The translations under genes and the position numbers were made by a program. A stretch of DNA of 64,000 nt, from assembly GCA_027620495.1 (NCBI GenBank), contig JAQCEA010000012.1, positions 1 to 64,000 on the forward strand, read 5' to 3'. How positions within the stretch are numbered: the first letter of the stretch is position 1; every line of letters begins with the position of its first letter. Of this stretch, positions 537-37,179 are shown in pieces. The notes beneath the pieces were generated by a model, which did no database searches, was not told where the DNA came from, and was given only the letters and a program-made list of their open reading frames with translations. The stretch comes from Pseudomonadota bacterium. GTDB lineage: Bacteria; Pseudomonadota; Alphaproteobacteria; Puniceispirillales; Puniceispirillaceae.

Positions 537-1136
537 TCACCCAGCACCCTCTTGCTGTGCAAAAAATGAGGTGCCGGTTGGCATAGCTGGTAATGGCATT
601 TCATATGGGCTGCAACGCACCTTTCCAGTTGTAACGCCTCTTACCAATTCGTGCGTAAACCGACTTGGCAGGTGATTGGGGCTAAGCTCAATCGCATCTT
701 CGGCATAATAAGTGGTGATATAAAGAGTCCGCGCATGGTTCGATAAATTTGGCGCAGAGCCATGTAGCAAGCTTGCATGCATTAAACATACCGACCCGGC
801 TTTTCCGGTACATGACACAATTTTGCTCTTTTGTTCGGCAATGATGTTTGAATCAACAGCACCAGTAAATACCCCATCATGCCAATGGGAATAGAGCGGG
901 CCTTTGTGACTGCCCGGGATCACCTCTAACGGGCCATTTTCCAATGTCACATCATCAAGAAACAATAAACAGGTTATGATGTCATCATTTGTCATTGGCT
1001 GGAATGGAAAATCTTGATGCCATTTCACTTCAGTGGCAGACCCCGGCAATTTTGAATTCACTTTGCCATGATGGAATTTCAGATTGGGGCCTAGCAAATC
1101 TGCGCAATAATCCACGGTGCGCGCCTTTCGCATCAC
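537..1136 (-). CDS. PhyH-family dioxygenase, C-terminal part of a frameshifted gene
   Basis: The 199-aa frame holds the catalytic half of a phytanoyl-CoA dioxygenase-like Fe(II)/2-oxoglutarate oxygenase. It has the HxD metal motif (WHQDFPF, His40/Asp42), a distal His in SLLHGSAPN (about His125) and a following Arg (about Arg136) for 2-oxoglutarate. Family members have about 300 aa in one chain, and the missing N-terminal third is encoded just upstream in another frame (to 1390). The two frames meet in an overlapping GTG/TGA at 1133-1136. Restoring one base there gives a continuous family-like sequence. This frame may be translated from the GTG through coupling, or the gene may be broken or mis-sequenced. 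The substrate is unknown; family members hydroxylate acyl-CoAs, ectoine and others. Confidence 0.75.
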   Translation of the reverse strand: MMRKARTVDYCADLLGPNLKFHHGKVNSKLPGSATEVKWHQDFPFQPMTNDDIITCLLFLDDVTLENGPLEVIPGSHKGPLYSHWHDGVFTGAVDSNIIAEQKSKIVSCTGKAGSVCLMHASLLHGSAPNLSNHARTLYITTYYAEDAIELSPNHLPSRFTHELVRGVTTGKVRCSPYEMPLPAMPTGTSFFAQQEGAG

Positions 1137-1390
1137 ATTTGCATAACTTCTTCTGGCGATTGCACCCGCCGCAGAGCTGGTTTGTCAGAACTATGGCCCG
1201 GCTGCAGGTCAAACCGCGCTCTTCCGTCCAATGTTTCACCATAATCTTTGCTGTAAGATCGACTCTCTTCTAGCCAGCCTTCAAACACCTGTTTCAAATC
1301 AGCGAGTTCTTTGGCTGAAACAGCATCCTCAACCACCAACACGCCATCCGCCCAAAACTTATCTATTTGTTGTTGTGTTAATGCGCCCAT
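1133..1390 (-). CDS. PhyH-family dioxygenase, N-terminal part of a frameshifted gene
   Basis: This frame encodes the N-terminal region typical of PhyH proteins: a short helix with FWADGVLVVEDAVS, then the linker ending in RRVQSPEEVMQM before a TGA. No metal ligands lie in this part; they are in the following frame (537-1136). I chose the ATG at 1390 because a GGAG Shine-Dalgarno (about 1397-1400) sits 6 nt before it; in-frame ATGs further upstream lack one. Read alone, this product of about 85 aa would have no catalytic residues. The simplest explanation is a one-base deletion in the AAAT/TG stretch near 1138. Confidence 0.65.
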   Translation of the reverse strand: MGALTQQQIDKFWADGVLVVEDAVSAKELADLKQVFEGWLEESRSYSKDYGETLDGRARFDLQPGHSSDKPALRRVQSPEEVMQM

Positions 1391-1768
1391 CGTCATCTCC
1401 TGCATTGTGACATATGAATTCTGATCGCGAAGAAAATACTGATGCAAAAATTTTTAAAATCCAAGAAAATTTCACACATCAAAATTGAATGGGCGTTGAT
1501 GATAGATACGGATTAGAAACGAGCCTCGATGCCGCTTTTCCCTCGCAGCTTGGCTGTTATCCAACCTGTTATAAAAAATAAGACGCATTACCTTAAGGCA
1601 AAGGCAGGTCAGACCATTGCTTGGGTCATCTTTTTGCGTAACGCACAAAAGTTTGAACTGAACACTGTTTTCATAACTATTTACTGATATGTTTGTGCGA
1701 CAGTTACGCATGCGTGACACAGCAACCGCTTGGACAGGTATCAGCCATAACGCAATTAGGGGAGTCCC
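1391..1768. other. Divergent intergenic region, presumed promoters
   Basis: About 380 bases separate the start of the PhyH gene (minus) from the CoA-transferase (plus). I see no convincing gene in it; a short minus-strand frame within it resembles no family. The right edge holds TAGGGGAG (about 1758-1765), a good Shine-Dalgarno for the ATG at 1769. Promoters for both directions are expected here, but I could not assign -35/-10 boxes with confidence. Confidence 0.4.
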
Positions 1769-2998
1769 ATGAGCCTATTTCACGACAGCGAAAGTCATTT
1801 TGATCGGTGTGGTGAACGAGGCCCCCAGCCAAGCAGCGCGCTTGGGGAATATTTGGTTCTTGACCTTACCAGAGTACGATCTGGGCCAACTTGTGTACGC
1901 CAACTGGCAGATTGGGGCGCAGATGTCATTAAGATAGAAGCGCCCGCTGACACCTCAGAGATGGGCGGGCCGCGGGCTGGGCCAGATTTTCAGAATCTGC
2001 ATCGCAACAAGCGCAGCCTGACGCTGAACCTCAAATCTGATGCGGGAAAAGACATATTTATGAAACTGGCCGCAAAAGCCGACGTGATCGTCGAAAATTT
2101 CCGGCCAGACGTCAAACACCGGCTTGGCATCGATTATGACAGCCTCGCCGCCAAGAATGAAGGGCTTGTCTATGCGTCGATTTCTGGTTTTGGACAGGAT
2201 GGACCGCTGGCCGACCGACCCGGCTTTGACCAAATCGCCCAAGGCATGGGTGGGCTGATGTCGATCACCGGCGAACCCGGGTGCGGCCCAATGCGTGTTG
2301 GCATTCCAATTGCCGACCTATGTGCCGGTCTGTTTGCCGCACAAGCCATTTTCATTGCACTACTTGAACGTGCAAAATCCGGAAAAGGCCAGTGGGTACA
2401 AACATCATTATTGCAGGCACAGGTATTTATGTTGGATTTTCAAGCCAGCCGATTTTTGATGGATGGGGAGATACCAAAACAAGCTGGCAACAATCACCCA
2501 CAATCGATTCCCACCGGGGTGTTTGCAACATATGACGGCAATATCAATATTGCTGTTGCCGGGGAACAAATTTGGCAACGTTTTGCCGATGCCCTTGGCA
2601 AGCCGGAATGGAAAGATGATGACAGATTTTCGATCAATGCGGCACGGTCGGACAATCGGGAAATCCTGAACGCTGAAATTGAGGCGATCACAACCACTAA
2701 CAGCACATCGTATTGGGTTTCAACGCTGAATAAAGCAGGCGTCCCGGCTGGCGAGATTAACAGCATCGATCAAGTTTTTGATAACGCACAAGTCCGGCAT
2801 CTGGGGCTTGCACAAGATGTAACCAGCCATGAACGCGGCGCTACAAAGCTGGTTGGCCAGCCAATTATTATGAGCCGCACCCCCAGCAAAATTGCCGCCC
2901 CATCACCCCTTGCTGGTGCCAATTCAGACGAAATTCTGACGGCGTTACACTACACAAAAGAACAAATTGATATGTTGCGTAAAGACGGTGTTATTTAA
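1769..2998 (+). CDS. CaiB/BaiF-type (class III) CoA-transferase
   Basis: A 409-aa protein, the usual length for class III CoA-transferases, which move CoA between carboxylic acids through an aspartyl anhydride intermediate. The opening LDLTRVRSGPTCVRQLADWGA and the IKIEAP segment match the nucleotide-fold start of the family. The PGFDQIAQGMGG segment carries the expected catalytic aspartate at about residue 154. About 20 extra residues precede the normal family start, but the ATG at 1769 has a strong Shine-Dalgarno. Donor and acceptor cannot be told from sequence; relatives use formyl-, succinyl- or carnitine-CoA. The next gene is a crotonase, so the two probably handle one CoA-linked substrate, as caiB and caiD do in carnitine metabolism. 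Confidence 0.88.
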   Translation: MSLFHDSESHFDRCGERGPQPSSALGEYLVLDLTRVRSGPTCVRQLADWGADVIKIEAPADTSEMGGPRAGPDFQNLHRNKRSLTLNLKSDAGKDIFMKLAAKADVIVENFRPDVKHRLGIDYDSLAAKNEGLVYASISGFGQDGPLADRPGFDQIAQGMGGLMSITGEPGCGPMRVGIPIADLCAGLFAAQAIFIALLERAKSGKGQWVQTSLLQAQVFMLDFQASRFLMDGEIPKQAGNNHPQSIPTGVFATYDGNINIAVAGEQIWQRFADALGKPEWKDDDRFSINAARSDNREILNAEIEAITTTNSTSYWVSTLNKAGVPAGEINSIDQVFDNAQVRHLGLAQDVTSHERGATKLVGQPIIMSRTPSKIAAPSPLAGANSDEILTALHYTKEQIDMLRKDGVI

Positions 2999-3092
2999 GC
3001 GGGGCAAGATATGGTGCATGATATTTTTTTGGCATTCACGCCATTGCCACCCAGCAACACAGACGATCTATGCAATGCGAGCATGAAATGAC

Positions 3093-3098
3093 GAGGAG
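3093..3098 (+). promoter_or_regulatory. Shine-Dalgarno that fixes a TTG start
   Basis: GAGGAG lies 9 nt before the TTG at 3108, with no in-frame ATG near, so it decides the start of the crotonase gene. Confidence 0.6.
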
Positions 3099-3107
3099 AC
3101 GGCAATT

Positions 3108-3923
3108 TTGGCTGAGGTTAGAGACATAATATTACCCACCGATAAGATTCAGGCACATGTCACAAACCGGGTTGGCCATGTTATTTTCAACAACCCGCAA
3201 CGGCATAACGCGGTATCGCTTGATATGTGGGATGCTGTCGAGGCAGCATTTTCGGCGCTTTCGGCTGATCAAACCGTGCGTGTAGTGGTTTTGTCGGGGG
3301 CTGGCGGCAAATCATTTGTTTCTGGTGCGGATATATCAAAATTTGATAGCGAGCGTGGGTCAAAAAAGGCAGTTGACCATTACAATGCCCGTGTGAAAAT
3401 AATCTATGACATCATAGAAAATTTTGCCAAGCCAACCATCGCCATGATCAATGGCTATTGCATGGGCGGCGGATTAAATTTGGCGGCATGCACCGATTTC
3501 AGGATTATATCGACAAAATCACAATTCGCGATGCCAGCGGCAAAGCTGGGGTTGGGCTATCCGTTTGAGGCGGTAAACCGGCTCATTCACGCGGTTGGTT
3601 TGGCCGAAGCAAAGATGCTGATGTTTACCGCCAAGACGATTGATGCAAACACCGCTCTTCGATTAGGATTTGTTCAAGAAGTGGTGCCAGAAGATGAACT
3701 GGCACAAAGGGTTATGGATATTGCCACAATGATTGCAGATAACGCACCGCTGACCGTGGCCGCAATGAAATATAATGCGCTACAAGCGGTCAAACCAAAT
3801 GTGGACCGAATTGATTTAACCCGCTGTGACGAGATGGTTGCCGCCTGTTTTGCATCTGATGATTACAAAGAGGGTCGACGAGCCTTTATGGAAAAACGAA
3901 AACCAAATTTTGCCGGAAAATAA
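3108..3923 (+). CDS. Enoyl-CoA hydratase/isomerase (crotonase) family protein with atypical active site
   Basis: A 271-aa crotonase-fold protein. The oxyanion-hole segments are present: SFVSGADISKF in the first half and NGYCMGGGLNLAACTDFRI in the centre. In authentic hydratases the catalytic glutamates sit in GGGCE and PEI; here those places read GGGLN and MPAAKLGLGY, so both glutamates are replaced (Asn and Ala). Classical water addition is therefore unlikely, and a different crotonase reaction (isomerase, hydrolase, lyase or decarboxylase) is more plausible. Translation starts at a TTG supported by GAGGAG. The gene follows the CoA-transferase with a gap of about 110 bp and may be cotranscribed with it. 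Fold assignment is firm; reaction unknown. Confidence 0.85.
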   Translation: MAEVRDIILPTDKIQAHVTNRVGHVIFNNPQRHNAVSLDMWDAVEAAFSALSADQTVRVVVLSGAGGKSFVSGADISKFDSERGSKKAVDHYNARVKIIYDIIENFAKPTIAMINGYCMGGGLNLAACTDFRIISTKSQFAMPAAKLGLGYPFEAVNRLIHAVGLAEAKMLMFTAKTIDANTALRLGFVQEVVPEDELAQRVMDIATMIADNAPLTVAAMKYNALQAVKPNVDRIDLTRCDEMVAACFASDDYKEGRRAFMEKRKPNFAGK

Positions 3924-3961
3924 TGGATAAAGCCGCCGCCAATGTAATGTGAGGATATCAG

Positions 3962-4585
3962 ATGCGTTCGTTTACAGTCAAAAAAACAGACCCGCTTTTT
4001 TCAACGCCACTATGCCTTTTTGAAATCGATAATAGCGCTGAGTTAAACAAAAAACTGATTTCTGAGTCCCGTGCCTGGCGCAAGCAAGAGAAAGGCGCGA
4101 ACATATCTAATCAAGGTGATAGCTGGCATTCACCAGATGGGCTGATGATGCGCACCGATCCCGGCTTTTCCGAAATTTCCAGAATTATCCCACAAATCGC
4201 GGCACAATATGCATTGCAAATCAATCCCGACCTAGACATCAAAAATTTCCGGTTTGAGGCTAATGCTTGGGTCAATATCAATCGGAAAGGCGGCTTTAAT
4301 ACGGTGCACCACCATGGCACATTTCATGTGTCCGGTGTGTATTATGTCAAACAACCGGCAAAAGCCACCGGCCAAAGTGGGATGATCGAACTGATCAATG
4401 GTCGCTTTGATCATCATATTTTTAGCCAAATTGGTGGTCAAGCCTTTGCCCCAAGCGTAAAAATGCGGCCAGCTGTTGGATCAATGCTGGTATTTCCATC
4501 AACTTTACTTCATTTCGTTTTTCCCAACGAAACCGATGAAGAACGCATTTCACTTGCTTGGAATTTAAGGTTTGTCCGCAAGTAA
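3962..4585 (+). CDS. TIGR02466-type putative 2OG-Fe(II) oxygenase
   Basis: The 207-aa product matches what I recall of the TIGR02466 family of uncharacterised double-stranded beta-helix proteins, thought to be 2-oxoglutarate/Fe(II) oxygenases. Visible features are an early SWHSPDGLMMR segment, a central HHHGTFHVSGVYYV stretch with several candidate metal-binding histidines, and a late LVFPSTLLHFVFPN segment with the distal His followed by an Arg. No signal peptide is seen, so it is probably cytoplasmic. Its last codons overlap or abut the start of the STT3 gene, suggesting cotranscription. Substrate unknown. Confidence 0.72.
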   Translation: MRSFTVKKTDPLFSTPLCLFEIDNSAELNKKLISESRAWRKQEKGANISNQGDSWHSPDGLMMRTDPGFSEISRIIPQIAAQYALQINPDLDIKNFRFEANAWVNINRKGGFNTVHHHGTFHVSGVYYVKQPAKATGQSGMIELINGRFDHHIFSQIGGQAFAPSVKMRPAVGSMLVFPSTLLHFVFPNETDEERISLAWNLRFVRK

Positions 4586-4628
4586 AAATCTTATCACAAC
4601 AAATAAACCAAACAAATGCAGAGGTACA

Positions 4629-5291
4629 TTGGCAGCTTTTCCAAGCAGATTGACCCGGCAGATCGACCGATTGCAGTCACAGCATCATGCACTGACAGAC
4701 CGGTCTTGGCTGGCATTGCCATCAGGGCGCGTCTATCTGCTATTGATTATCATGCTGTCGCTGGCGGCGGCTTTTGCCAATTTTCATGTACGCAGTCAGC
4801 AATTCACCCATTGGAAATCACATCCAGAAAAATTTTATGTCGGAAACACACCGCTTTTTTCAACCATGGATGCTGGCTATTTTCTGGGCATCGCGCAAAG
4901 CTTGTCACGCCAAGACACACCCAATGATTTTTCTGCACGGCGCAATTTTCCTGATGGGAAAACATATGCGCAAAATGATGCTGACATCACCCCCGGCAAG
5001 GCACCTCAGCTATTCACGGTAATCTATTGGCTTGCCGACAATGATAGCCCGCAGGCGTTGCTGGAAACTGGCAATATGGTTATTCCGGTCACGGCCGCGA
5101 TCACGGCGCTGGCGATCATTTTATGTTTTGGCGCAACTGGCTATTGGCTAGAGGGCACTGTGGCCGCTGTCGGCGGCGGGCTATCGATGGCGTATTTGCA
5201 GAGATCTTCAATTGGACGGATTGATACTGACCAGCTTAATCTTGGGTTTTTTATCTGTTATTTGGCTTGGCGATCTGGGCTGGCCGCGTGA
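4629..5291 (+). CDS. STT3/PglB-like oligosaccharyltransferase, N-terminal part of a frameshifted gene
   Basis: This frame holds the first transmembrane helix (YLLLIIMLSLAAAF) and two acidic catalytic motifs of STT3-type oligosaccharyltransferases. STMDAGYFLG corresponds to the Asp56 region of PglB, and GRIDTDQLN to the Asp154 region. These enzymes move a lipid-linked glycan to asparagine on the periplasmic side. Translation probably starts at TTG 4629, which has AGAGG just before it; a TTG at 4572 would lengthen the N-terminus and overlap the previous gene. The frame stops at 5291 in the middle of the membrane domain, and the rest continues in another frame from 5267. The two parts total about 720-730 aa, the length of PglB, so this is one gene with a one-base loss near 5264-5270. 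Confidence 0.75.
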   Translation: MAAFPSRLTRQIDRLQSQHHALTDRSWLALPSGRVYLLLIIMLSLAAAFANFHVRSQQFTHWKSHPEKFYVGNTPLFSTMDAGYFLGIAQSLSRQDTPNDFSARRNFPDGKTYAQNDADITPGKAPQLFTVIYWLADNDSPQALLETGNMVIPVTAAITALAIILCFGATGYWLEGTVAAVGGGLSMAYLQRSSIGRIDTDQLNLGFFICYLAWRSGLAA

Positions 5292-6754
5292 AAAATTGGC
5301 AGGCCAGCCTTGGTGTGACCATTTTGGCAGGGCTGACAGCACGGCTGTTTATGGCATGGTATGGCAAGTCCGAACTTATTTGGATGAGCCTGTTTGCCCT
5401 ATTTTGGATGCTATTGGTTTGCAGTCGTGACTGGCGACGGGCTGGCGGGTTTAGCATCCTATTTATACTGCTTTCTGGTGTAGAGATTGTCGATATTGGC
5501 GGGTCTGCCTACATCAAAGAAAGTTTTGCAACCGGCGCACTGCAATTTCCAAATGTGCTTACCACAGTTTCTGAAGTGACCGAGATTGATCTGTGCAACA
5601 TGTCACGGCAGGTGACCGGGTCAATTGGGCTTGGCATCATCGGGCTAGCTGGCATGCTGTTATGGGCTGTTCGTCATCCGGTTTATGCCATTGCCCTTGG
5701 GCCGCTGGCTGTGTTTGCTATGCTTAATTTTATCATTGGCAACTGGGCTATTTTTTATTCTGCGCCAGCCATTTGGTTTGGTCTGGCATTCATCATCATC
5801 ACTATTTGTCGTGCCTGTTATCAAATGCTGTGGACCCGTGTTAGCGGCATACAAAACCTGCCACAATCTGGCAATCTTGCTGTTACCGGCGTCATCGCCA
5901 GCTGTCTTTTAATTGGCAGCTATCTTGTCAGCCCTTATAAATTTGTGCCGCAAGAGGCGGTGCCGCCAAAAATCATCTCTGCTCTAGAAAGCCTGAACCA
6001 TGTCGCCGCTGACGAGGATGCGGTCATGGCATCTTGGTGGGATTATGGATATAGCTCGTTACTTTTTAACAAACTGCCGGTAATGGCAGATGGCGGCAGC
6101 CAAATTGGCGCGCCCACATTCATGATGGCAAAAGCCTTGCTGGCGCCAACGCAACAAGAAACAGCGGCCATTTTGACATTTCTGGCACGCGAAGGGGGCG
6201 GCGGCATATCATCCCATGCCAGCAGTCAAAACAGCTTATTTCGCCATATAAATGATTCTGCCACCCAGCCAGCACCAACCATCTATTTTATGCTGACAAA
6301 CCAGATGACTGACTGGGTTTATTCGATATCGCAGATCGGCAACTGGGACCTTGATACCGGCAAACCCATTCCGGTAAATGGGAACGCCAATGGCCCGGCG
6401 TTATCTTATGATAGGTTACAATGCAAACCGATGGCCGCGCCCTCTCAACTAAACTGTAATGGCCATATTTTTGATCTTCGTTCAGGCAAGGTCGATGGCC
6501 GATTGGTTCTTGATGGGGCGGTGCGCACGCGGCAAGGGCGGCAAATTGGCGGGGTTGCTTTTCCGGGCAAGCAATTAAATGTGTTGCAGATGGCTGAAAT
6601 CGAACAGACACAGACATTTTATTTGCTACACCGCGATTTATTTCAATCAAGCTTTAACCAGCTATTTCATTTAGGGCGCGCTGACAGCACCTTATTTGAG
6701 ATGGTGTATGATGACTATCCATATAGGCGGATTTTTCGGCTGCAAACACAATAA
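5267..6754 (+). CDS. STT3/PglB-like oligosaccharyltransferase, C-terminal part of a frameshifted gene
   Basis: This 495-aa frame continues the membrane domain (several hydrophobic helices in residues 10-235) and carries the catalytic TVSEV glutamate (about Glu103), equivalent to PglB Glu319 in the external loop. The periplasmic domain follows with the family signature WWDYG at about residues 257-261, which reads the +2 position of the acceptor sequon. The tail MVYDDYPYRRIFRLQ is also STT3-like. It opens with a TTG inside the end of the preceding frame. Inserting one base near 5264-5270 gives an uninterrupted membrane helix across the junction. No glycosyltransferase cluster is nearby, so the glycan donor must be made elsewhere. 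Family call firm; functionality uncertain because of the frameshift. Confidence 0.82.
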   Translation: MAIWAGRVKNWQASLGVTILAGLTARLFMAWYGKSELIWMSLFALFWMLLVCSRDWRRAGGFSILFILLSGVEIVDIGGSAYIKESFATGALQFPNVLTTVSEVTEIDLCNMSRQVTGSIGLGIIGLAGMLLWAVRHPVYAIALGPLAVFAMLNFIIGNWAIFYSAPAIWFGLAFIIITICRACYQMLWTRVSGIQNLPQSGNLAVTGVIASCLLIGSYLVSPYKFVPQEAVPPKIISALESLNHVAADEDAVMASWWDYGYSSLLFNKLPVMADGGSQIGAPTFMMAKALLAPTQQETAAILTFLAREGGGGISSHASSQNSLFRHINDSATQPAPTIYFMLTNQMTDWVYSISQIGNWDLDTGKPIPVNGNANGPALSYDRLQCKPMAAPSQLNCNGHIFDLRSGKVDGRLVLDGAVRTRQGRQIGGVAFPGKQLNVLQMAEIEQTQTFYLLHRDLFQSSFNQLFHLGRADSTLFEMVYDDYPYRRIFRLQTQ

Positions 6755-6782: not shown

Positions 6783-8411
6783 TTATGCCGCCGATAGGGG
6801 CGGTTTACCAAGCACCAAGTCAGCGCCTTTTTCAGCAATCATCAACACCCCGGCATTTAAGTTTGCTGATAGCATCGTTGGCATAATTGATGCGTCAATC
6901 ACCCGTAAATTCTGCATCCCATGTACCCGAAGATTGTCATCAACAACCGCATGCGGATCAGTTTTCGGTGCCATCCGGCATGTACCCATCAGGTGATAAA
7001 TTGTGGTGCTGCGCTGGCGTGCGATATCAAGAAGCTCATCATCGCTCTGCACAGCATCACCGGGATAGGCTTCATAGTCAAAATAAGGTGCCAACGCATC
7101 TGTCCGCATCAGCCGCCGTGATAATTTTATACCGGCCAGCAATACCGCTTTATCTTCTTCTGCAGATAAATAATTTGGTTGAATAATCGGCTTGTCAAAT
7201 GGGTTGGCACTGCGGGCCTTCACCCAGCCTAAACTTTCTGGGCGTTGTTGCCATGTGGCGAGGGTAAAGCCAGGTTCGTCATCAAGCCAAGCCTGCATGC
7301 CTTCTTTATAGCTTGCTGGCGTAAAACTGATCTGAATGTCATTATTTTTGATCGCTTCATTTGAATGCCAAAAGCAATAAACCAGCGTTGGCCCCAATTC
7401 GAGAATCGATTGTTTGCCGATAAAATATTTGGCAATTTCACCAAGCAGGCGTGGGCCACGTGCCAACTCGTTAATCGTTTGTACATTTTTGGCGCGGGCA
7501 GTCAGCCGGGTGCCATAATGATCACGCAAATTTTCCCCAACACCCGGCAGTACGTGTTTCACCTCTATACCAAGGCTGTGTAAAAGATCTGGATTGCCAA
7601 TGCCGGAAAGTTGCAACAAATGCGGCGAATTAATGGTGCCACCAGAAATAATCACCTCGCGTGCCGCGTGAATTTTATGGATTTTACCATTAGCCCCGCC
7701 GCGGCGATAGGCAATGCCCGTTGCACGTTTGCCATCAAGGAGGATTTCGGTGGCATGGGCGTTGGTGATGACTGTTAGATTATCCCGTTTTTTCGCTGGC
7801 TTTAAAAAGGCACGGGCCGCACTCATGCGAATTTTTCCGGTCGAGGTCCGCTGGACATAGGATGTGCCAAGCTGGGTTTCGCCATTATAATCCGGGTTGC
7901 GCGGAATACCGAGGCTGGCAGCCCCTTCGATAAAGGCTTCGCATAATGGATCGCGCCAACCAAGATTGGTGATGATCATTTCACCTGATTTGCCGCGAAA
8001 TTTGTCATCGCTTTGATCCTGATGCGATTCATATCGCTGAAAATATGGTAATATATCGTCATATCCCCAGCCTTTATTGCCGCGTTGCGCCCAGACGTCA
8101 AAATCCATTCTTTGGCCGCGGTTAAAGATCAACCCATTGATCGAACTTGACCCGCCAATAACTTTACCGCGCGGGGTCGGGATGGTACGCCCATTGGTGC
8201 CCTCGCTTGGTTCTGATTGATACATCCAGTTCACATTCGGATTTACCAAGGTTTTCATAAAACCAGCGGGAATATGAATAAAAGGATGCCAATCATTAGG
8301 CCCGGCTTCCAAAACGCAAACCCGATAGCGCCCACAGGCGGTTAACCTGTTCGCCAAAACACAGCCAGCTGAACCAGCACCGACAATAATATAATCAAAT
8401 TGGTCAGCCAT
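6783..8411 (-). CDS. GMC-family FAD-dependent alcohol/choline dehydrogenase
   Basis: A 542-aa flavoprotein of the glucose-methanol-choline family, with the N-terminal Rossmann FAD motif (DYIIVGAGSAGCVLANRL), GMC signature 1 (GKVIGGSSSINGLIFNRG) and signature 2 (GTINSPHLLQLSGIG). The C-terminus has YHLMGTCRM, with the catalytic histidine, and NLNAGVLMIAEKGAD, a variant of the usual NTNAP motif. Members oxidise alcohols, choline or polyethylene glycols to aldehydes. It resembles the BetA/AlkJ group, but no betaine-aldehyde dehydrogenase or BetI lies beside it, so choline as substrate is not supported by context. It is transcribed convergently to the STT3 gene and divergently from the next gene. 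Confidence 0.9.
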   Translation of the reverse strand: MADQFDYIIVGAGSAGCVLANRLTACGRYRVCVLEAGPNDWHPFIHIPAGFMKTLVNPNVNWMYQSEPSEGTNGRTIPTPRGKVIGGSSSINGLIFNRGQRMDFDVWAQRGNKGWGYDDILPYFQRYESHQDQSDDKFRGKSGEMIITNLGWRDPLCEAFIEGAASLGIPRNPDYNGETQLGTSYVQRTSTGKIRMSAARAFLKPAKKRDNLTVITNAHATEILLDGKRATGIAYRRGGANGKIHKIHAAREVIISGGTINSPHLLQLSGIGNPDLLHSLGIEVKHVLPGVGENLRDHYGTRLTARAKNVQTINELARGPRLLGEIAKYFIGKQSILELGPTLVYCFWHSNEAIKNNDIQISFTPASYKEGMQAWLDDEPGFTLATWQQRPESLGWVKARSANPFDKPIIQPNYLSAEEDKAVLLAGIKLSRRLMRTDALAPYFDYEAYPGDAVQSDDELLDIARQRSTTIYHLMGTCRMAPKTDPHAVVDDNLRVHGMQNLRVIDASIMPTMLSANLNAGVLMIAEKGADLVLGKPPLSAA

Positions 8412-27759: not shown

Positions 27760-28641
27760 ATGATCACATTATTGGCCCCAGCCAAAGTGAATTTATGTTT
27801 GCGCGTTTATGGCAAAACAAACAACGGATTACATCATATTGATTCTATTGTTGTGTTTTGTGAATTTGGCGACACAGTCTCTATCAGCCCAGCAGACCAA
27901 GACAGTTTTCGCGTGCGCGGCCCATTTGCGCCATTATTAACCCGTTCAGACGACGACAAAAATTTGGTCATTGCCGCACGTGACGCCTTTCGTGCCAATG
28001 GTGGTGCCTGTGGGCAGGTCGCCATTATTCTTGATAAAGAAATTCCGGTGGGCGCTGGCCTTGGCGGCGGATCGGCCGATGCCGCGGCAACATTACGCGC
28101 CTTGAATAAAATCGCCAAAACGCCGCTTAGCGATGACCAGCTTTTTGCCATTGCCGCCACACTTGGGTCAGATGTGCCGGTCTGTCTGGCGGCAACACCG
28201 CACCGCATCAAAGGCACCGGCGATGTGATCTATCCGCTAGATGGAATCCGCGCTGGTGCTTTGCTCTTGGTCAACCCGCTTGTTCCTTTGTCGACAGCCG
28301 CGGTATTTCAACAGCTCGCCCCGCCCTATAATCAACCGCTGCCGGAAATCACCGATGATGATGCGGTGCGTTTATGTGATTTTGGCAATGATCTGGAAGC
28401 GGCCGCCACCGCATTTGTCCCAAAAATAAGCGATCTTTTGACCCACTTGCGCCAAACGCCCACATGCCGCGCCGCGCAAATGTCAGGCAGCGGTGCCAGC
28501 TGTTTTGGCATATTTGACAATATCGCGGCGGCAAGCGGGGCAGCAGCGGCATTCAATCGCGCCGGTATTTGGGCAAAAACAACAAAGCTACATCCTTTAG
28601 ATGCAGCGGAAACTGCGCCGACAAATGGCGTTTTATCATGA
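27760..28641 (+). CDS. ispE: 4-diphosphocytidyl-2-C-methyl-D-erythritol kinase
   Basis: A 293-aa GHMP kinase of the MEP isoprenoid pathway, phosphorylating the 2-hydroxyl of CDP-methylerythritol. The start APAKVNLCLRVYGK, with the catalytic lysine, the ATP loop PVGAGLGGGSADAAATLRAL, and the C-terminal MSGSGASCFGIF are all as in IspE. The ATG at 27760 lies 4 bp after the TPR gene, in a common alphaproteobacterial arrangement (TPR protein, then ispE). Confidence 0.96.
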   Translation: MITLLAPAKVNLCLRVYGKTNNGLHHIDSIVVFCEFGDTVSISPADQDSFRVRGPFAPLLTRSDDDKNLVIAARDAFRANGGACGQVAIILDKEIPVGAGLGGGSADAAATLRALNKIAKTPLSDDQLFAIAATLGSDVPVCLAATPHRIKGTGDVIYPLDGIRAGALLLVNPLVPLSTAAVFQQLAPPYNQPLPEITDDDAVRLCDFGNDLEAAATAFVPKISDLLTHLRQTPTCRAAQMSGSGASCFGIFDNIAAASGAAAAFNRAGIWAKTTKLHPLDAAETAPTNGVLS

Positions 28642-28870: not shown

Positions 28871-29977
28871 ATGACCGCGCATATTGCCCTGATCAAAGGT
28901 GACGGTATTGGCGGCGATATTTGCGATGCCACATTATATCTGGTTAATATGGCCCTGCGACAAGTGGGCGAAGCGCCGCTTGCCGTCACCGAGATTGATG
29001 CGGGCGCGGCCTATTTTCAAGAAACCGGAAAAGATATAGAGCCAAATGGCGAAGAAACCGCCGGGGCTTGTGATGCTATTTTTCTAGGTGCAATCGGCTT
29101 GCCGTCTATCCGCCACCCAGACGGCACCGAAATTTCGCCGCATCTGCGGCTTCGTGAACGGTTTCAGCTTTATGCCGGGGTGCGGCCGGTAAAGGCCTAT
29201 CCACATATACCGCAAAAATTGGCTGATCCACGTGCCGCTGAAATTGATTTTATTGTGATCCGCGAATCAACCGAGGGGCTGTTTCATACCGCCGCGGTGC
29301 ATAATCGCAGCCGTATAGAGGCCGATATTGCGGTTGAAGAAACCATGCGGATCACCCGAAAAACGACCGAAAAACTGCATCGGTTTGCGTTTAATCTTGC
29401 TCGCAAAAGACAGGCGGCTGGCAAAGCTGGACACGTCACTTGCGTTGACAAGGCCAATGTCTTTACCGCCATGGCATTTTTTCGCAAAATTTTTGATGAG
29501 ATCAGCGCCCATTATCCAGATGTGCAAACTTCCTATAATTATGTCGATGCACAAGCCCTTGATCTTATCCGCCAGCCATGGAATGCCGACATATTGGTTA
29601 TGGAAAATATGTTTGGTGATATTTTATCTGATTTGGCAGGCGGACTTGTTGGCGGTATGGGTATGGCGGCCTGTGCGGAAATTGGTGATGAAACCGGATT
29701 GTTCCAACCTGCCCATGGTAGCGCCCCAGATATTATGGGCATGGACCGTGCCAACCCGATGGCAGCCATTTTAAGCGGTGTCATGATGCTTGATTATCTA
29801 GCTGACAAATTGGACCTGCCAGCTTATGCCGCCGCCAGTCATTTGCTGGATCAAGCGATCACCACCGCTTTTGCGCAAAATAGCGTGCGGCCAATGGAAT
29901 TTGGCGGTGATATGGGCACAAAATCTGTCACAAATGCGATTGCCGAGACCTGTCAGAATCTATCACCAGATTTATAA
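28871..29977 (+). CDS. Isocitrate/isopropylmalate dehydrogenase family protein
   Basis: A 368-aa metal-dependent beta-decarboxylating dehydrogenase. It starts IALIKGDGIGGDI and has the substrate-binding LRLRERFQLYAGVRPVKAYP, the family signature NMFGDILSDLAGGLVGGMGMA, and PAHGSAPDIMGMDRANPMAAILSG near the end. The segment ESTEGLFHTAAVHN resembles the substrate loop of the tartrate/isopropylmalate branch more than classical NADP-isocitrate dehydrogenase, so it may act on a 3-isopropylmalate-like or tartrate-like compound. No leucine genes are nearby. Its end overlaps the convergent response-regulator gene by 6 bp. Confidence 0.88.
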   Translation: MTAHIALIKGDGIGGDICDATLYLVNMALRQVGEAPLAVTEIDAGAAYFQETGKDIEPNGEETAGACDAIFLGAIGLPSIRHPDGTEISPHLRLRERFQLYAGVRPVKAYPHIPQKLADPRAAEIDFIVIRESTEGLFHTAAVHNRSRIEADIAVEETMRITRKTTEKLHRFAFNLARKRQAAGKAGHVTCVDKANVFTAMAFFRKIFDEISAHYPDVQTSYNYVDAQALDLIRQPWNADILVMENMFGDILSDLAGGLVGGMGMAACAEIGDETGLFQPAHGSAPDIMGMDRANPMAAILSGVMMLDYLADKLDLPAYAAASHLLDQAITTAFAQNSVRPMEFGGDMGTKSVTNAIAETCQNLSPDL

Positions 29978-30691
29978 TTCCAGCCGATACCCATTTTCCG
30001 TGGTGATCACAATTGGCGTCTTTGTCAGCCGCCCTATTTTTTGCCGCAACCGATAAATATGCGTTTCCAGCGTATGTGTGGTCAGGCCATTTTGCATGCC
30101 CCAAACCTCGGTCAATAATTCATCTTTTGTCGCCGATTCCGGAAATGCCAAATATAAAAACTTTAAAATTGTGGTTTCTTTTTCGGTCAATGCCTGCATC
30201 CGCCCACATCCTATTTTATGCAGCATTTTATTGGCCGGGACAAAATTCAGATCAGCCAATTCAAACCGGGCATCATCCAATGCTTTAAATTGCCGCAGCT
30301 GGGTATGAATACGTGCCAATAATTCACCCATGCGTAAGGGTTTTGTGACATAGTCATTTGCACCAGCCTCTAGGCCTTCGATAATATCAGATTCGGCGTT
30401 TTTGGCTGTCAGCATCACAATTGGCTTGGTAAAACCATCACTGCGCAAACGTTTGCATATGTCCACCCCATTGCCATCCGGCATTTGAATATCCAACAAA
30501 ATCAGATCCGGGTTGGCATCTTTTAGCGCGGCGTTTAATCCGGTCACCGACCCCACATCAAAAATATTGTGAAACCCCTCGGCCACAAATTGCTGACGCA
30601 AACTTGTGCGCAAATAAGCATCATCATCAACAATCAATAGGCGTGACGAATTACCAGCTTCTTGGGAGGTGCGTTTGGACAAACCTTGCAT
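29972..30691 (-). CDS. OmpR/PhoB-family response regulator, orphan
   Basis: The 239-aa protein has an N-terminal receiver domain (LLIVDDDAYLR acidic pocket, LILLDIQMPDGNG with the phospho-accepting Asp, VMLTAKNA, and the lysine of YVTKPLR). The C-terminal winged-helix DNA-binding domain ends in THTLETHIYRLRQKIG and ITTENGYRLEL. The layout is standard OmpR type. No histidine kinase gene lies next to it, so its partner is encoded elsewhere. The 120-bp gap to ribA is AT-rich and divergent. Confidence 0.93.
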   Translation of the reverse strand: MQGLSKRTSQEAGNSSRLLIVDDDAYLRTSLRQQFVAEGFHNIFDVGSVTGLNAALKDANPDLILLDIQMPDGNGVDICKRLRSDGFTKPIVMLTAKNAESDIIEGLEAGANDYVTKPLRMGELLARIHTQLRQFKALDDARFELADLNFVPANKMLHKIGCGRMQALTEKETTILKFLYLAFPESATKDELLTEVWGMQNGLTTHTLETHIYRLRQKIGRLTKTPIVITTENGYRLEL

Positions 30692-34611: not shown

Positions 34612-37179
34612 ATGAGCCATTATGATGCGCCAGCCATTGAAAAAAAATGGCAGGCAATCTGGGAGAACACTGGCTGTTTCACCGCCAGTACCGATCACAG
34701 CAAACCAAAATATTATGTGCTGGAAATGTTTCCCTATCCATCTGGCCGGATACATATGGGGCATGTGCGCAATTATACACTTGGTGATGTTGTGGCCCGT
34801 TACCGCCGTGGCAAAGGATTTAATGTCTTGCATCCAATGGGGTGGGATGCGTTTGGGCTGCCTGCTGAAAATGCGGCGATGGAACGCGGTGTACATCCCG
34901 GCAAATGGACAGTTGAAAACATCGCCAGCATGCGCACGCAATTACGCAGCATGGGCTTGTCATATGACTGGCCGCGGGAATTTGCCACCTGTACGCCAGA
35001 TTACTATCAGCATGAACAAAAAATGTTTCTCAAATTTCTTCAGGCGGGACTGGCTTATCGCAAAGAAAGCTGGGTGAATTGGGACCCGGTAGAAAATACC
35101 GTTCTGGCCAATGAACAAGTGGTAGATGGGTGTGGTTGGCGGTCTGGTGCGCCTGTTGAACGCCGTCTTTTGTCACAATGGTTTTTAAAAATTACCGAAT
35201 TTGCCGATGATTTATTGGCGGCGATTGATGGTCTTGACCGCTGGCCTGACCGGGTCCGCTTGATGCAGGCCAATTGGATTGGCAAATCTGAAGGCGCACG
35301 GGTAAGATTCCAGCTGAACCAGCCATTGGGCGGTGAAATAAACAGCATTGAAGTCTTTACCACCAGACCAGATACATTATTTGGTGCCTCATTTATTGCC
35401 GTGGCCGCGAATCATCCGCTTGCCCAGACTATTGGCAAAACCAATCAAGCGGCGGCCGATTTTATTGCCGAATGTGCCAAGCTTGGTACATCTGAAGCGG
35501 CGGTTGAAACCGCTGAAAAGCGCGGCTTTGATACCGGCCTGCGGGCGGTGCATCCGCTAGATAGCACCATCACCCTGCCAGTTCATATTGCCAATTTTGT
35601 CTTGATGGAATATGGCACAGGCGCGATTTTTGGCTGTCCGGCCCATGATCAGCGCGATTTAGATTTTGCGAATGCCTATGACCTGCCCGTAACACCAGTG
35701 GTCTTGCCAGAAGGTGCTGATGCGGCCAGCTTTACCATTACCGATACCGCCTATACCGGGCCCGGCCGGCTGATCAATTCAGGTGACTGGAACGGGCTTG
35801 ATATCGACACAGGCAAAAAAGCCGCCATTACGGCACTAGAATCTGCCAATGCTGGACGGGGCGAAACCACATTTCGGTTGCGCGATTGGGGGGTATCACG
35901 CCAACGCTATTGGGGCTGTCCGATACCGATCATTCATTGCCCATCATGCGGCGCGGTGCCGGTACCAGAGGCTGACTTGCCGATCACATTGCCGGAAGAT
36001 GTTGATTTTTCAACCCCGGGCAATCCACTTGCCAACCATCCAAGCTGGAAACATACCAACTGTCCAAAATGCGGCGGCGCGGCCGAACGCGAACAAGACA
36101 CATTTGACACATTTTTTGAAAGCTCTTGGTATTTTTTGCGGTATGCAGATCCAACACATAAAGATGGGTTTAGCGCCGCCGCCGCGGCTTATTGGATGCC
36201 GGTAGACCAATATATTGGCGGTGTTGAACATGCCGTGCTACATCTTCTTTATTCGCGGTTTTTCACCCGCGCCTTAAGCCGTGTTGGCTATCTTGATCTA
36301 GATGAACCTTTTGCTGGTTTGATGACGCAAGGCATGGTGTGCCATCAAACCTTTAAAAACCAAGATGGAAAATGGTTGTTTCCAACCGAAGTGACCAAGG
36401 AAGGCGACCGCTGGGTTGAGACCAGTACCGGTGCTGTTGCCAAGGCCGGGCGCATTGAAAAAATGAGCAAATCAAAGCGCAATGTCGTTGACCCGGAATT
36501 GATTATTGAAACCTATGGGGCGGATACAGCGCGGTTATTTATGTTGTCAGACTCGCCACCAGAGCGCGACATGGAATGGACCGAATCAGGCGTAGAAGGG
36601 GCGTCACGCTTTCTAAAACGCATATGGCGGCTGGCCCATGATGACAGCCTTGTCGCCCGCGGCACACCGGTTCCAGAAACGCTTGGCGACAGCGCCTTGG
36701 CGGCGGTGCGGATGGCGCATAAATCAATTTTGGCATTATCCGCAGATATTGAAAATTTTCGATTTAACCGTGCGGTGGCCCAGCTCCATATGCTGACCAA
36801 CGCGGTAACTGATATCAAAATGGAAGAACCCGGCGCACCCGCCGCCAAAAGATTTGCGATTGAGACCCTTGCCCAATTGCTCAGCCCGCTAACACCGCAT
36901 CTGGCTGAAGATATGTGGCAAGCATTGGGACACGAAACGCTACTGGCACAATCTTCATGGCCAGTGGCTGATGCCGCATTGGCAAGAGATGATGAAATTG
37001 AAATTGGTGTTCAGGTAAATGGTAAACTTCGTGATACCATCAAGCTGGAACGCGATTGTCCGAATGATGTGGCTGAATCGCTGGCACTGGCATCTGCCTC
37101 TGTGCAACGCTATCTGGATGGCAAATCACCGAAAAAGGTAATTGTTGTCCAAAACAGGATTATCAATGTGGTGGCATAA
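34612..37179 (+). CDS. leuS: Leucyl-tRNA synthetase
   Basis: An 855-aa class I synthetase. The HIGH-like motif is HMGH at about residue 48 ([19 protein letters not shown]), the editing domain follows from about 220 to 400 (with [12 protein letters not shown]), and KMSKS is at about 617 ([15 protein letters not shown]). A zinc-type CPSCG/CPKCG pair is visible near 445-485. The C-terminal domain ends [11 protein letters not shown], as in bacterial LeuS. It overlaps the start of lptE by 14 nt. Confidence 0.98.

Follow-up and report, generated by a model that had tools for sequence, protein, structure and literature searches.

A very probably recently inactivated PglB/STT3-type oligosaccharyltransferase gene in a SAR116 alphaproteobacterium

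We describe a gene for a single-subunit N-oligosaccharyltransferase (OST) of the PglB/STT3 type that has, very probably, been inactivated recently, in a lineage where an older copy seems to have been lost and a copy probably gained by transfer is now decaying. Its host is an alphaproteobacterium of SAR116, a group of abundant surface-ocean heterotrophs. The window, by which we mean the whole stretch of DNA analysed, is the first 64 kb of contig C37 from a genome of 2.40 Mb in 48 contigs (G000). Most of what is known of bacterial N-glycosylation comes from Campylobacter with its close relatives and from Desulfovibrio. An intact enzyme of this kind would move a preassembled glycan from a polyprenyl-pyrophosphate carrier to the Asn of periplasmic N-X-S/T sites; a divalent metal would be held by Asp, DxD and Glu residues, and the WWD motif would read the Ser or Thr at +2. 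The gene has the following features.

4629 to 5252, plus strand: N-terminal part of the OST with the EL1 Asp motif (MDAGYF) and the DxD motif (GRIDTDQLN), its frame unbroken as far as the T6 run; it matches the order's OST model (E 8.4e-71)
5247 to 5252, plus strand: T6 run at which the reading frame breaks; the register of relatives calls for one base more
5249 to 6754, plus strand: C-terminal part with TVSEV, WWDYG and the periplasmic domain of the OST, reading through to its stop; it matches PF21436 (E 1.7e-11) and PDB entries 3rce and 5ogl
5744 to 5746, plus strand: TGG codon (Trp) at the position of PglB Arg375, coordinates counted by eye

The gene occupies positions 4629-6754 and is split over two frames, which are open at 4572-5291 and 5267-6754. 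The first plausible start is a TTG at 4629 with AGAGG ahead of it, as judged by eye. When aligned with orthologues, the N- and C-terminal parts meet without a gap at the T6 run (5247-5252), which has one base fewer than the register of the orthologues. The same point is read in one frame at 18 of the 19 relatives' loci, the remaining one having been missed by the search pattern. Neither frame contains a further stop, and from the coordinates an uninterrupted product would have about 708 aa. The original prediction had recognized a bacterial STT3/PglB-like OST in two frames, and this is borne out; it had placed the junction at 5264-5270, downstream of the actual break, and had put the restored protein at about 725 aa, which is too long.

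The family assignment is carried by motifs, by profiles and by the fold of an intact relative. The four motifs that were first noted (MDAGYF, GRIDTDQLN, TVSEV and WWDYG) are all found. The C-terminal part scores 45.2 bits against the PF21436 STT3/PglB core, where the cut-off is 23, and matches solved PglB structures by sequence with E-values down to 9.4e-11. The NCBIfam PglB model is also matched (E 1.6e-19), but at 69.9 bits, far under that model's strict cut-off of 1300. The N-terminal part alone matched no entry in Pfam, NCBIfam or PDB, and matches the order's own OST model as given above. Profile PF02516 returned nothing on the gene's own genome; unlike it, PF21436 and our alignment A1 do detect these SAR116 enzymes. 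A1 was built from the window's C-terminal part and 15 of the 19 other loci (L009, L013, L014 and L020 were omitted for contig-end cuts, while L002, also cut, was retained). Matches to the window OST occur in 24 of 61 searched genomes, G000 included, the best other one at E 7.6e-149.

The residues expected of an active centre are retained throughout. The equivalents of D56, DxD and E319 are all present in G000 and in every relative with letters at these positions (33/33, 34/34, 34/34 and 34/34), as are the W, W and D of WWD (32/32 relatives) and the Tyr that follows WWDYG. Since the window copy is itself broken, the fold was examined in the intact relative L048, whose AF2 model (pLDDT 82, pTM 0.80) displays a GT-C fold with a periplasmic domain over its full length. 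The best PDB matches of this model are PglB 5ogl, 6gxc and 3rce (E 3e-23 to 3e-22, TM about 0.7), and OSTs from human, yeast and archaea come next; with 5ogl the match reaches E 3.3e-23 and TM 0.72, at an identity of 19-20% in the structural match. Together, the modelled fold and the motifs support a PglB mechanism for the intact SAR116 members. They resemble the PglB of C. lari and C. jejuni in fold (as seen in L048), in the EL1 Asp, the DxD, the catalytic Glu, and WWDYG with its next Tyr. They differ from it in that the SAR116 OST has no adjacent pgl operon, in a variable R331 column and in the column of PglB G482, where 21 SAR116 relatives have Gly and 10 have Pro; the window copy differs further in its frameshift and in a Trp at R375. 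This is a known kind of enzyme, in an order for which we found no published description of it.

How widely is the enzyme distributed? In a sample of the class, just four of 385 genomes match A1, among them G000, and three of the four come from Puniceispirillales (SAR116); PF21436 retrieves three of the same 385 genomes. The fourth match, G075, has a separate, divergent STT3 (PF02516, E 2.3e-10). This protein, at L200 73-2577, is of STT3 type with a WWDVG motif and belongs to another alphaproteobacterial family. Across the SAR116 order, the OST model is matched by 36 of 136 genomes, G000 included, all in families f1, f2 and f3. The expectation that such enzymes are uncommon in alphaproteobacteria thus holds for the class but not within this order. 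Among these carriers, 27 have a single open frame whose match spans positions 20-683 or more of the model's 697 (in one of them, G018, the final codons run off its contig), eight have sizeable fragments truncated at contig ends, and G000 has the split copy. Decay in all relatives, which would have counted against the original prediction, is therefore not what is seen. Within the genus, only two of 16 genomes match: G000 and G001, whose OST shares 73% identity across 298 residues and extends past its contig end, with the 5′ half missing. We found no description of an order-wide OST distribution in SAR116 in the literature searched, and the words ‘oligosaccharyl’ and ‘glycosylation’ are absent from the main text of two SAR116 genome papers (PMC8547437, PMC12262181). 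If the reading of the intact SAR116 branch is true, it would mean protein N-glycosylation in common ocean bacterioplankton, which is testable in a cultured strain.

As to a glycan donor, G000 has one PF02397 transferase, on contig C25 rather than on the OST contig, with a Polysacc_synt_2 dehydratase, a Wzy_C protein and an epimerase as its neighbours, and with these genes a carrier-linked glycan pathway is probable. In the window the OST does not lie in a pgl cluster, and its profiled neighbours are mostly metabolic. Six other genomes (G022, G030, G037, G495, G496 and G514) have a long PF02397 protein at 11-15 kb from their OST (distances by hand), which is missing at the corresponding place in the window. 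At L185, L186, L187, L188 and L189 this transferase, of about 430-450 aa, has malate synthase and a relative of DNA methylases as neighbours, and GalU/PGM relatives are nearby. A cluster of OST and initiating transferase was considered as a candidate and rejected: long PF02397 proteins also turn up in two genomes in which we found no OST, G035 and G052, the one in G046 lies on a different contig from the OST, and PF02397 and OST do not track each other across the order.

A further question is which sites the intact enzymes would use. In Campylobacter, R331 of PglB reads the acidic residue at -2. The corresponding column has Gln in G000 and Arg in 12 of the 32 relatives with a letter there. PglB homologues from Desulfovibrio have been tested, and according to passages of PMC4894442 they show relaxed site choice, with an Arg at R331 not being decisive alone; for this reason relaxed sites in the SAR116 OSTs are a prediction only, made by analogy. 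The two sets are alike in being PglB-type enzymes outside Campylobacter with a varied residue at R331, and, for Desulfovibrio, a relaxed -2 rule (the same passages of PMC4894442). They are unlike in that Desulfovibrio belongs to another bacterial class and that the SAR116 OSTs fall on one side of a branch, in a tree with three outgroup rows.

These observations bear on the alternative that the SAR116 enzymes combine the PglB fold with another acceptor rule or donor, for instance sites that lack the -2 acid, so that a Campylobacter-type picture would be wrong even for intact members. The minority of Arg in the R331 column would fit, as would the lack of a pgl-type cluster beside the OST in the contexts examined and the fact that PF02397 does not track the OST (it is present in 16 of the 36 carriers versus 36 of the 100 other genomes, many of them incomplete). 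We nevertheless regard this alternative as unlikely, given that the WWD residues and those that bind metal and Asn are conserved, and that the fold resembles PglB along its length; moreover, the relaxed -2 specificity reported for Desulfovibrio PglBs in those parts of PMC4894442 would still be N-glycosylation. A different marine system offers a partial parallel. In passages of PMC8931226, carrier-linked protein glycosylation is proposed for marine bacterioplankton from PglL genes near phosphonate genes in Prochlorococcus and SAR11, and SAR116 is named there once, for phosphonate traits. PglL is an O-linking enzyme of a WaaL-like family (PMC8931226 and PMC3643930), and we dropped the phosphonate connection because PglL belongs to this other family.

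We now turn to the break itself. The split is most likely true and recent decay, and not an assembly slip, which makes the window OST most likely a fresh pseudogene. The case rests on four observations: a Trp at the R375 position, a fossil of the OST in a sister genome, a 10-bp deletion in a neighbouring gene and the absence of breaks in 20 other genes.

Firstly, the window copy has Trp at the position of PglB Arg375, where all 31 relatives with a letter in that column and all five outgroup enzymes have Arg; alignment of the sequence to the PglB chain likewise puts the Trp at R375. This is the pyrophosphate-binding Arg (R404 in yeast), and passages of PMC6215017 report that alanine at R375 or Y196 abolished PglB glycosylation activity. 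The original list of motifs omits this residue. By the Arg, the window copy is not a working member of a family of origin that is itself clear; nor is it read in one continuous frame. Secondly, the sister genome G011, which joins G000 first in the marker tree (SH-aLRT 95), with G001 next, has the same flanking genes only 111 bp apart. The gap aligns to the 3′ end of the OST with a score of 33, against a maximum of 15 in 300 shuffles, so that G011 keeps only a 3′-end fossil of the gene at the same site. Thirdly, a PhyH-family dioxygenase about 4 kb from the OST (537-1447, minus strand) is split by a 10-bp deletion that G011 lacks; in the sister it is one frame of 307 aa. Finally, 20 other genes compared with G011 show no frame break over 25,278 bp that include 34 runs of six or more bases. 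This comparison started from 25 ORFs, from which we dropped the two PhyH pieces and three whose alignment covered under 90% (two truncated where the fetched stretches end, one with a longer start).

The decay would be recent, since both parts lack any other stop and the last 298 codons compared with G001 give a dN/dS of 0.19/1.07 (about 0.18). This ratio is above that of nine neighbour genes (about 0.035 to 0.11) and far below 1, a pattern that fits selection until recently. General erosion of the protein was looked for without being found: G000 deviates at three of 66 conserved columns, an ordinary rate that 17 of the 36 other rows exceed, and several of those rows also carry private changes at otherwise invariant columns. 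The earlier suggestion that the gene, if broken, is a recent loss agrees with these data. The companion suggestion, that an intact gene implies N-glycosylation in this host, is unsupported for the window copy, because it has two lesions and the gene is deleted in the sister genome.

Some of the same data can be read the other way, with an undamaged, working gene in the living strain and the break a product of assembly or sequencing error. Single-base changes in T runs are common among assembly errors, contig C37 ends about 5 kb from the site, the halves are otherwise open, and both the ordinary deviation at conserved columns and the dN/dS well below 1 go against decay. We consider such an error decidedly unlikely: the runs in the 20 other genes are unbroken, the change from Arg375 to Trp would persist after correction and is predicted to be inactivating, the OST is deleted in the sister, and the neighbouring PhyH lesion is a 10-bp deletion rather than a run error. 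Programmed or transcriptional slippage at the T6 run, which would restore the protein and make the split regulatory, is hardly credible, for although the run lies exactly at the frame change and a -1 step there gives the relatives' register, it is short, the window holds 85 runs of six or more bases, the 27 carriers with full-length or nearly full-length matches show no split, and the Trp at R375 is left unexplained.

The location of the gene gives some indication of its history. The relevant features of the window are listed here.

3962 to 4585, plus strand: 2OG-Fe(II) oxygenase (PF13759), which lies upstream of the OST, bounds the site on the left and is conserved in the sister G011
6783 to 8411, minus strand: GMC-type oxidoreductase (labelled by reading only), which bounds the site on the right and is conserved in both G011 and G001
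27760 to 28641, plus strand: GHMP kinase, which we take to be IspE-like, immediate neighbour of the OST in 11 of the 22 relatives examined
28871 to 29977, plus strand: Iso_dh-family dehydrogenase in what is presumed to be the ancestral OST slot, with the GHMP kinase on one side and the response regulator on the other
29972 to 30691, minus strand: response regulator flanking the presumed ancestral OST slot

The 11 relatives in which the OST adjoins the kinase come from families f2 and f3 and from genera g6 and g8 of f1. In one further relative, G037, the OST is part of the same block in rearranged form, and in the other 10 the OST lies elsewhere. The window carries the kinase block at 20-38 kb with the Iso_dh gene filling the slot, and its OST sits 23 kb away between the 2OG oxygenase and GMC genes. 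Eight genus mates were compared: the Iso_dh gene fills the slot in five (G003, G009, G010, G011 and G015), in G001 it comes after the kinase and reaches the end of the contig, other genes are there in G013, and the stretch from G005 stops short of the slot.

The trees disagree on where this copy belongs. The genus of G000 joins g7 in the OST tree (SH-aLRT 98), whereas it joins g2, g6 and g8 in a marker tree built on an 855-aa protein (34612-37179). Holding g1, g2, g6 and g8 together in the OST tree was rejected (p-AU 8.9e-5), in an AU test on a quick tree with the group chosen from the marker tree after both trees had been seen. G054 and one of two G019 pieces were short and left out of the OST tree; the marker was searched over 30 genomes, of which the tree used 28 (G018 and G514 were dropped for weak, paralogue-like matches). 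The conflict between the trees, taken with the different location, suggests that the OST of this genus was transferred within the order and then lost, and an old duplication with differential loss could also lie behind the conflict. Under transfer, the order's older copy would have stood beside the IspE-like kinase gene and been lost in the genus of G000; the ancestor shared by G000, G001 and G011 would then have acquired a copy from another SAR116 lineage, placed between its 2OG oxygenase and GMC genes, and this copy would now be decaying, by deletion in G011 and by the frameshift and the Arg to Trp change in G000.

The trait seems to have been gained and lost repeatedly in SAR116. A wider picture can be proposed, possible though somewhat short of probable, in which SAR116 has an order-wide N-glycosylation enzyme on a branch of its own, with an old link to the ispE-like gene and relaxed sites, that is repeatedly deleted and regained between genera, as for a surface trait under pressure from phages or grazers; the window would then capture a loss in progress. 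An old slot refilled, a copy elsewhere, a sister deletion with its fossil and a fresh frameshift make up a series of natural cases in which to ask why some lineages retain such a surface trait and others lose it.

Two minor observations concern neighbouring DNA and a second genome. G016 has an intact OST and, elsewhere, a second, decayed N-terminus of an OST (L190 12875-13198) with in-frame stops, which again suggests OST turnover; this fossil adjoins a PF02397 transferase and a gene related to that of the Polysacc_synt_2 dehydratase on C25. In the window, positions 1486-3961 hold CaiB-like and enoyl-CoA hydratase-like genes (labels by reading) that have no match in the G011 stretch compared, where just about 180 bp separate PhyH from the 2OG oxygenase.
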